Below are positions 47,116 to 50,819 of a stretch of DNA of 64,000 bases, in pieces; the first letter of the stretch is position 1, and the number at the start of each line of letters is the position of its first letter. Origin of the DNA: Oscillospiraceae bacterium (GTDB lineage: Bacteria > Bacillota > Clostridia > UBA1212); NCBI GenBank assembly GCA_015069195.1, contig SVJA01000001.1, positions 202,148-266,147 of the forward strand, given 5' to 3'. Position numbers and translations under genes: made by a program. Under the pieces are notes generated by a model, which saw only the letters and a list, made by a program, of their open reading frames with translations, did no database searches and was not told where the DNA came from.

Positions 47116-48315
47116 TCAGTTTGTATAGTTGTCAAAGTATCCCTGTACCAAAACAACCGGTGTACCCTTATCACCGCTACCGCTTGTAAGGTCGCAAAGT
47201 GAACCGATAAGGTCTGTAAGCTGACGAGGTGTTGTACCCTGTGAAGCCATATTACCTACGAGATCTGCATCCTTAGCCTTTATAGCCGCAGAAATAGCAT
47301 CTTTAAGTGCTTCACCGCTGAGATCTTTGTAATCGTTATCAGCAAGATATTTGAGTTTAAGTTCGCTCGGTGTACCGATAAGTCCGTCTGTGAAAGCGGG
47401 GGATACAACCGGATCTGCAAGCTCCCATATTTTACCTTGAGGATCTTTAAACGCACCGTCGCCGTAAACCATAACTTCTACGTGTTTGCCGGTAGCTTTG
47501 AGAATTCTGTCCTGGATATCGAGAACAAGATCTTTGCACTCTTTCGGGAACAACTTTATAGTGTCCTCTGTAGATTTGTTTGAACCCAAAAGGCCGTATT
47601 TCTCATTATAACCGCTTCCGTTTATGGAGGCATTGAGAATATCATCAAGTCCGCATACAGCCTTTGCACCTGCAGCTTTTAAGATACGTTTTGTTCTTGC
47701 ACGCGTATGAATGTCGCAAGTAAGTACGCAGTCTGTGTAATTCAAAATTGTCTTCGCCTGATTTGCAAAAACAATCTCAGCCTCTGCGCCGGCTTCTTCT
47801 ATAATATTCTGATAGTAAGCAACGTAGTCAACGCCTGTGAACTCATGCTTGTTCTCACCGAAAAGTCTTCTGTAATCAGCAAGCGAAAGAACATCGCTGT
47901 AAGGATTTATGCCGGCCTCGTCTACCTGGTCGTATGTAATCAAAGCATTACCAACCTCGTCTGACGGATAGCTGAGCATAAGTACAACTTTCTTTGCGCC
48001 CATAGCAATACCTTTGAGGCATATGGCAAAACGGTTTCTGGAAAGTATCGGGAATATAACGCCGATTGTGCCTCCGCCTAATTTAGCCTTAACATCCGCT
48101 GCAATATTTTCTACCGTAGCGTAGTTGCCCTGACTTCTTGCAACAATAGACTCTGTAATGGAAATAACATCTCTGTCTCTGAGGGAGAAACCTTCGCTCT
48201 CTGCAGCTTCTAATACACTGTCAGCTACGATAGCGGCCAAATCATCGCCCTGTCTGATAATGGGACAACGAATGCCGCGAGATACTGTACCGACTTTACG
48301 TTCTGTGTTATTCAC
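47116..48315 (-). CDS. CofE-like (coenzyme F420-0:L-glutamate ligase family) protein
   Basis: About 399 residues. The sequence from RGIRCPIIRQGDDL through DRDVISITESIVARSQGNYATV matches the CofE family, which joins L-glutamate to coenzyme F420-0 using GTP. No other F420 genes are present and F420 is not expected in this kind of organism; from memory, CofE homologues without F420 exist in many Firmicutes, and one in Chlamydia adds glutamate to folate. The substrate here is therefore open. The start is placed at GTG 48315, about ten bases after AAAGGTG; the frame stays open 17 codons upstream, across leader sequence. A structured leader with an internal terminator and a good promoter lies upstream. 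Confidence 0.75.
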   Translation of the reverse strand: MNNTERKVGTVSRGIRCPIIRQGDDLAAIVADSVLEAAESEGFSLRDRDVISITESIVARSQGNYATVENIAADVKAKLGGGTIGVIFPILSRNRFAICLKGIAMGAKKVVLMLSYPSDEVGNALITYDQVDEAGINPYSDVLSLADYRRLFGENKHEFTGVDYVAYYQNIIEEAGAEAEIVFANQAKTILNYTDCVLTCDIHTRARTKRILKAAGAKAVCGLDDILNASINGSGYNEKYGLLGSNKSTEDTIKLFPKECKDLVLDIQDRILKATGKHVEVMVYGDGAFKDPQGKIWELADPVVSPAFTDGLIGTPSELKLKYLADNDYKDLSGEALKDAISAAIKAKDADLVGNMASQGTTPRQLTDLIGSLCDLTSGSGDKGTPVVLVQGYFDNYTN

Positions 48316-48502
48316 TATCAATCTACACCTTTCTAAATACACTTTCAGGAGGTCTAAAAAAGTCAAATCCGAGTATGCCTCCGCCTAAGCAGCGAAAACC
48401 CGACTCGGAATCATATACCATCTTAAATATATTTTCTCTTTCTCATCGGGGCCTCCCGTAAGCAATGTTTCCGTACCGCAAATGCGTACTATCGAAAACA
48501 AC
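48316..48502 (-). ncRNA. Attenuator-like 5' leader of the CofE-like gene (possible riboswitch)
   Basis: A promoter (TTGAAA 48532-48537, 17 bp, TATAAT 48509-48514) starts a leader of about 190 nt. Near its start GUUUUC...GGAAAC enclose an inner GUAC/GUAC hairpin (48452-48500 area). Further on, TCCGAGT and ACTCGGA (48368-48409) form a stem followed by TTTGACTTTTTT, a terminator before the gene. The CCCCGA at about 48444-48449 can pair with TCGGG inside the terminator's 5' side, giving a possible anti-terminator. No known riboswitch consensus was recognised (not TPP, SAM, FMN, glycine, cobalamin, purine or THF-I as I remember them). Confidence 0.55.
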
Positions 48503-48508
48503 TGAATT

Positions 48509-48537
48509 ATTATATCACGCTTATTTTTTCGTTTCAA
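48509..48537 (-). promoter_or_regulatory. Promoter of the CofE-like leader
   Basis: TTGAAA, a 17-bp spacer and TATAAT on the minus strand. Confidence 0.8.
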
Positions 48538-50542: not shown

Positions 50543-50570
50543 TTGTATAATTCCCTGAAAATGTTATAAT
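50543..50570 (+). promoter_or_regulatory. Promoter of the cobalamin riboswitch transcript
   Basis: TTGTAT, a 16-bp spacer and TATAAT, just before the riboswitch core. Confidence 0.7.
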
Positions 50571-50576
50571 ACTCAT

Positions 50577-50745
50577 AGTCCGGAAAGGAAACAGGTGAAA
50601 ATCCTGTACGAGCCCGTCGCCGTGATGCGCGACAAAATGACTTTTCTGCCGGAGGTGCCGCAAACCTTCGGGACAAGCCATTGAAGCAAAAGCTTTGAGA
50701 AGGTGAAAAGTCTTGCGCAAAGTCGAAATATTTTCCGAACAGATT
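50577..50745 (+). promoter_or_regulatory. Cobalamin riboswitch
   Basis: The sequence has, in the right order, the landmarks of cobalamin riboswitches: AAAGGAAACAGGTGAAAATCC (as two adjoining parts AAAGGAAACAGG and TGAAAATCC), ACGAGCCCGTCGCCGTGA, then GCCATTG, AGC-AAAA-GCT, GAGAAGGTG, and AAAGTC with a following arm. It lies 75 bp before a DUF4430 lipoprotein and an ECF S component, both of types tied to vitamin B12. A GC-rich segment, CTGCGGGCGCCGG (50758-50770), may take part in control of the ribosome site. It probably shuts down uptake when cobalamin is plentiful. Confidence 0.85.
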
Positions 50746-50819
50746 GCTCTTTATAAACTGCGGGCGCCGGTTTTCAAGAGAAAAGATATCATAAAATTTA
50801 TTTTAAGGAGATTACAACT

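Follow-up and report, generated by a model that had tools for sequence, protein, structure and literature searches.

Riboswitches that act by terminating transcription, such as THF-I, purine and preQ1-I, combine a promoter, a conserved folded 5′ domain, a variable linker and a terminator-like hairpin in front of a metabolic gene. In attenuators of the trp/his type, and in antibiotic-inducible ones with an upstream ORF, a Shine-Dalgarno (SD) sequence and an AUG open a short reading frame 5′ of the terminator. The put RNA of phage HK022 is an antitermination RNA made of two adjacent bulged hairpins that do not overlap the terminator. We have analysed a window of 64,000 nucleotides from the genome of a gut bacterium (Oscillospiraceae), in which the leader of a CofE-like gene resembles each of these systems in part. 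It shares the whole series of elements, from promoter to metabolic gene, with the terminating riboswitches. Unlike them, however, it matches none of 4227 Rfam models, be it at gathering thresholds or at E values up to 10 (where chance matches only were obtained), in agreement with a preliminary description of this DNA that could assign it to no known riboswitch class. Furthermore, no pair of mutually exclusive folds that is both conserved and convincingly strong was found in it, and it occurs in one genus with one copy per genome, a range that is unusual for a riboswitch and counts against the attenuator reading proposed below.

The leader is preceded on the minus strand by a sigma-A type promoter (TTGAAA-17-TATAAT, 48509..48537, with the hexamers at 48537-48532 and 48514-48509), which matches the consensus at 11 of 12 positions, has a TG-extended -10 and carries hexamers identical to those of the sister genome (G001). 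Both this promoter and a leader of about 190 nt had been claimed before and are borne out by our analysis: transcription is predicted to start at ~48502-48503 (minus strand), and from ~48502 to the GTG start codon at 48315 the leader measures 187 nt. The RNA begins with CAGUUGUUUUCGAUAGUACGCAUUUGCGGUACGGAAACAUUGCUUACGGGAGGCCCCGAUGAG, runs through an A+T-rich linker and the hairpin UCCGAGU/ACUCGGA to UUUGACUUUUUU, and reaches the GTG start by way of the SD sequence AGAAAGG of the CofE-like gene (48328..48334, minus strand), which is conserved in G001. Conservation in a close relative, which the preliminary description had proposed as a check, was found as well, since G001 carries the same leader, with promoter, leader, hairpin and gene order all as in the window genome.

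Two hairpins are predicted at the 5′ end of the RNA: P1 (CAGUUGUUUUC-GAUA-GUACGC AUUU GCGGUAC-GGAAACAUUG; 48463..48504, minus strand) and P2 (CUUA-CGGG-AGGC-CCCG-A-UGAG; 48442..48462, minus strand), the latter with a pair probability of 0.96-1.0 as long as the terminator arm has yet to be transcribed. A compact folded region had been noticed here from the sequence, and the two-hairpin region indeed beats shuffles in folding (z about -2.2). Over leader columns 1-62, the window species and G001 differ at a single position, which lies in the apical loop of P1, whereas their CofE-like genes show 42.5% divergence at fourfold sites (dS ~0.8). With fourfold-site divergence as the reference, one difference in 62 nt has a neutral probability of about 6e-14, a comparison of two sequences, G001 being the one further genome examined from the genus. 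The A+T-rich linker 3′ of this block diverges at about the neutral rate. The leader thus has, in these two genomes, a conserved folded sensor domain of the kind expected of a riboswitch. Because the P1 pairs are invariant between the two species and P2 loses its outermost pair in G001, the structure of P1 and P2 is predicted rather than proven by covariation. The idea that motifs of P1 are repeated in P2 was dropped, as 22% of shuffles contain as much repetition. The strict constraint on 62 nt in a leader of a single genus makes it a test case for the origin of cis-regulatory RNAs.

The terminator-like hairpin (48368..48409, minus strand) was compared between the window species and G001. Its outer 7 bp, UCCGAGU/ACUCGGA, are invariant in both species, and in its inner stem of 9 bp all pairs are kept despite two two-sided (compensatory) and two one-sided changes. 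A shuffle test of the stem, which uses two sequences and hence has low power, gave 126 of 500, and slid controls were without any two-sided change. Of the terminator-like stem that had been claimed, UCCGAGU/ACUCGGA followed by UUUGACUUUUUU is present, but the U-tract (48356..48361, minus strand) stands 6 nt past the drawn stem (2-3 nt if weak pairs extend it), which makes for a less than ideal terminator, and a simple terminator scan does not call the hairpin, which is called by a looser scan. If it is non-terminating, the hairpin may instead belong to a 5′ UTR with more extensive structure.

The minimum-energy fold contains P1, P2 and the terminator-like hairpin side by side in the window species as well as in its sister (-45.4 and -48.0 kcal/mol), and the computed default of the leader is therefore OFF. 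Two exclusive folds had been proposed in the preliminary description, with CCCGA pairing to UCGGG within the terminator. This pairing reaches a probability of 0.55-0.69 in a window transcript truncated before the terminator 3′ arm, but it is confined to the window species, since the sister has UGCGG and P2 there stays at a probability of at least 0.96. Of the pairings tested, the one common to both species that most directly opposes the terminator is formed by 5 bp between CGGAA in the P1 3′ strand and UUCCG in the terminator 5′ arm; it barely exceeds what shuffles give, and the alternative fold that contains it lies 10-14 kcal/mol above the ground state. A pairing between the start of the leader and the 3′ arm of the terminator was discarded, as it is not significant in the window species.

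The leader is very likely a functional RNA that acts in cis, through attenuation. On balance, we take it to be a genus-restricted, cis-acting transcription attenuator of the CofE-like gene, which is monocistronic, and the folded leader probably decides whether this gene is read. Transcription would begin at ~48502, and the first 62 nt would fold into a two-hairpin sensor of P1 and P2, to be followed by the fast-evolving A+T-rich linker and then by the terminator-like hairpin. All three hairpins would be present together in the ground state and keep the gene OFF by default; a signal acting on P1/P2 would relieve termination, and CGGAA of the P1 3′ strand may pair with UUCCG of the terminator 5′ arm as a weak antiterminator. 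Since the RNA block is conserved and the leader peptide discussed below is not, sensing at the level of the RNA is favoured, and it seems more likely that a small molecule or RNA-binding factor reads the putative sensor directly than that the signal passes via a leader peptide.

The preliminary description had called the leader non-coding. However, an SD-like GGGAGG (48457-48452) and a start codon, both contained in P2, open a predicted 7-codon reading frame that extends into the variable linker (ATG AGA AAG AGA AAA TAT ATT TAA, MRKRKYI*; 48423..48446, minus strand). This makes it conceivable, though in our view unlikely, that attenuation is ribosome-mediated, such that a ribosome on the Lys/Arg-rich leader peptide holds the terminator 5′ arm open upon starvation, in the presence of an antibiotic or through initiation controlled by P2. 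As in leader-peptide attenuators, an SD, an AUG and an ORF of 7 codons, or of 11 in the sister (MKKKVYYLASK*), lie before the terminator-like hairpin at the level of sequence. The strong SD and its good spacing to the ATG (GGGAGG-CCCCG-ATG) are identical in both species, and GGAGG, ATG and an ORF occur together in 0.6% of dinucleotide shuffles, a rate that rises to 6% when any strong SD and any start codon are allowed. A [R/K]K[R/K] pattern is kept in the first codons, and the sister's stop codon abuts the terminator stem, but that of the window lies 13 nt 5′ of it. The peptides themselves differ between the two species and contain neither conserved regulatory codons nor a conserved stalling peptide, and the differences in the ORF region look neutral, with 0 synonymous changes. 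Thus, unlike in known leader-peptide attenuators, the peptide varies while the strictly conserved part is the RNA upstream of the ORF, and the ORF region forms no antiterminator.

The coexistence of P1, P2 and the terminator in the ground state, along with the lack of a strong antiterminator common to both species, also fits antitermination directed by a protein or by the polymerase itself, in which P1/P2 would either be bound by a protein or work like put, causing RNA polymerase to ignore the terminator while forming no base pairs with it. This we consider quite unlikely. Its appeal lies in two adjacent hairpins that begin at +1 and in the gene-specific, single-copy distribution of the leader; P1 and P2 would resemble HK022 put in that two bulged hairpins stand side by side at the start of the RNA, clear of the terminator. 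However, neither a partner protein nor a neighbouring regulator was identified, the likeness to put is one of anatomy, a relation in sequence is not expected, and polymerase and host differ between the two systems. It is very unlikely that the leader does not regulate the gene and is instead a small RNA in its own right, with its 3′ end at the hairpin, or an operator in the DNA across the transcription start: the conserved block does lie directly 3′ of the promoter with an imperfect dyad, and the hairpin could close an RNA of 130-150 nt, but no second promoter can be made out in the stretch from the hairpin to the gene, a 4-nt bulge makes the dyad asymmetric and like an RNA stem rather than an operator, and the sister retains promoter, leader, hairpin and gene order.

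As to the distribution of the leader that we read as an attenuator, a covariance model built for it (R1) finds exactly one copy each in the window genome and G001. A scan of 31 genomes of the order, 391 of the class and 399 of the phylum, the latter two being samples of those groups, gave no other credible R1 match; the weak matches (23-27 bits) are fragmentary alignments, two of which read as coding sequence. A relaxed pattern uncovered no further copy in the 391 class genomes, 3 pattern matches in IMG/VR included none that matches R1, and blastn of the leader against phages and plasmids returned nothing relevant. Beyond the sister, BLAST of the 5′ domain in the 31 order genomes yielded short matches only, and those inspected (L033-L036, L056, L057) are identities of 15-19 nt, the best of which (L034) is inside a reading frame. 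The leaders of 104 CofE-like relatives, when compared, had no element in common with that of the window. Relatives across Clostridia had been expected at the outset; instead, neither the other 29 order genomes nor the hundreds of class and phylum genomes contain the leader. Within the genomes scanned, it is a genus-restricted element and not a widespread riboswitch class.

Other leaders are found in front of CofE-like genes elsewhere in the order. Within the family, the closest other genus (L006) has, ~60-105 nt 5′ of the CofE-like start, a promoter-like sequence with a long hairpin and U-runs (GUAGUUGUUUUUUUAAAAACAGCUGCGCUUUUUG) immediately 3′ of it, an element that resembles a promoter-proximal terminator for the CofE-like gene and whose base resembles that of P1. 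In another genus of the order (L004/L005), a structured leader with the pairings CCGUUG...CAACGG and GAGRC...GUCUC follows a clear -10, ~80 nt 5′ of the CofE-like start.

The gene downstream of the leader (47116..48315, minus strand; 399 codons, GTG start) was correctly placed in the CofE family, as it matches PF01996 (F420_ligase) with an E value of 4.5e-59. It shares this family with the CofE/FolC2 (COG1478) enzymes; unlike them, it scores 45 and 42.5 bits with the NCBIfam CofE equivalogs, far under the cut-offs of 274 and 181, and CofD was not found in its genome (~96% complete). A role as the CofE of F420 biosynthesis was rejected on both counts, in line with the earlier remark that F420 would be unexpected here. 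We know of no assigned function for the CofE-like family in Clostridia, where such genes are common, with matches in 40 of 58 sampled genomes and 80 further loci.

With respect to gene neighbourhood, the CofE-like gene adjoins GMP synthase, not folate genes, in ~40 of 104 relatives (including L003, L004, L005, L006 and L116). In L116, the GATase match spans 76 of 190 profile positions, which suggests that this GMP synthase has a shortened glutaminase domain. In L019 and L020 the CofE-like gene follows diaminopimelate dehydrogenase, and in other relatives it follows what we take, from reading the translation, to be LL-diaminopimelate aminotransferase. In the genome of the window, guaA lies away from the CofE-like gene, beside a recombinase-like ORF, and no Rfam leader was found within 6 kb of it. 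At this locus outside the window (L149:1611-4477), guaA reads as an ORF of 355 aa that lacks the glutaminase part, and the ORF immediately 5′ is serine-recombinase-like, which may reflect an insertion beside or within guaA.

It is tempting to see in the leader a new riboswitch class peculiar to this lineage, with either the substrate or the product of a CofE-like ligase functionally tied to GMP synthase as its ligand, but we regard this as doubtful. If the leader does sense a substrate or product, it would offer a direct handle on what the CofE-like enzyme does. Folate is a possible field for the enzyme, since the Chlamydia member of COG1478, CT611 (CofE/FolC2), complements a folC mutant (PMC1971073), although the gene order would point equally to purine nucleotides.

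A different structure, an H-type pseudoknot, was seen before CofE-like genes of other Clostridia (L069:1435, L100:1432, L103:1432), where it overlaps the ribosome-binding site and ends in AGAAAGG. It was also found at L153-L172 and L176 (around 1501-1575), and its consensus is (stem) NGYYCRC (stem) N15-25 UUUGYGRRCAGAAAGGCUAUG. A model of it (R2), which comprises stem 1 only and leaves the pseudoknot helix outside, was run with the loose threshold of E 0.05 or better and has matches in 108 of the 391 class genomes, with up to 12 per genome; the weaker of these were not individually verified, and SD-like sequence raises their scores. In the 21 best matches, compensatory changes affect 9 of 11 pairs, 98.6% of cells are paired, the covariation score was reached by none of 500 shuffles, and covariation is strong in both helices. 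No Rfam family matches the pseudoknot, and after a light check of the literature it is possibly a new widespread RNA element. The genes 3′ of it presumably encode, to judge from reading their translations, ClpX, Rho, ArgH, an aldolase, RnfD and others, a diversity that speaks for a general element of translation and against a switch for one metabolite. Such a covarying pseudoknot at ribosome-binding sites may have broader importance. The window leader was also considered as a degenerate copy of this class, which was rejected, as there is no R2 match near the locus.

Lastly, the window contains a cobalamin riboswitch (38.8 bits) at 50564-50753 on the plus strand, seen also at L150:5422-5612, which is conserved in the sister genome and lies before two genes, one DUF4430 lipoprotein-like and one for a small membrane protein.
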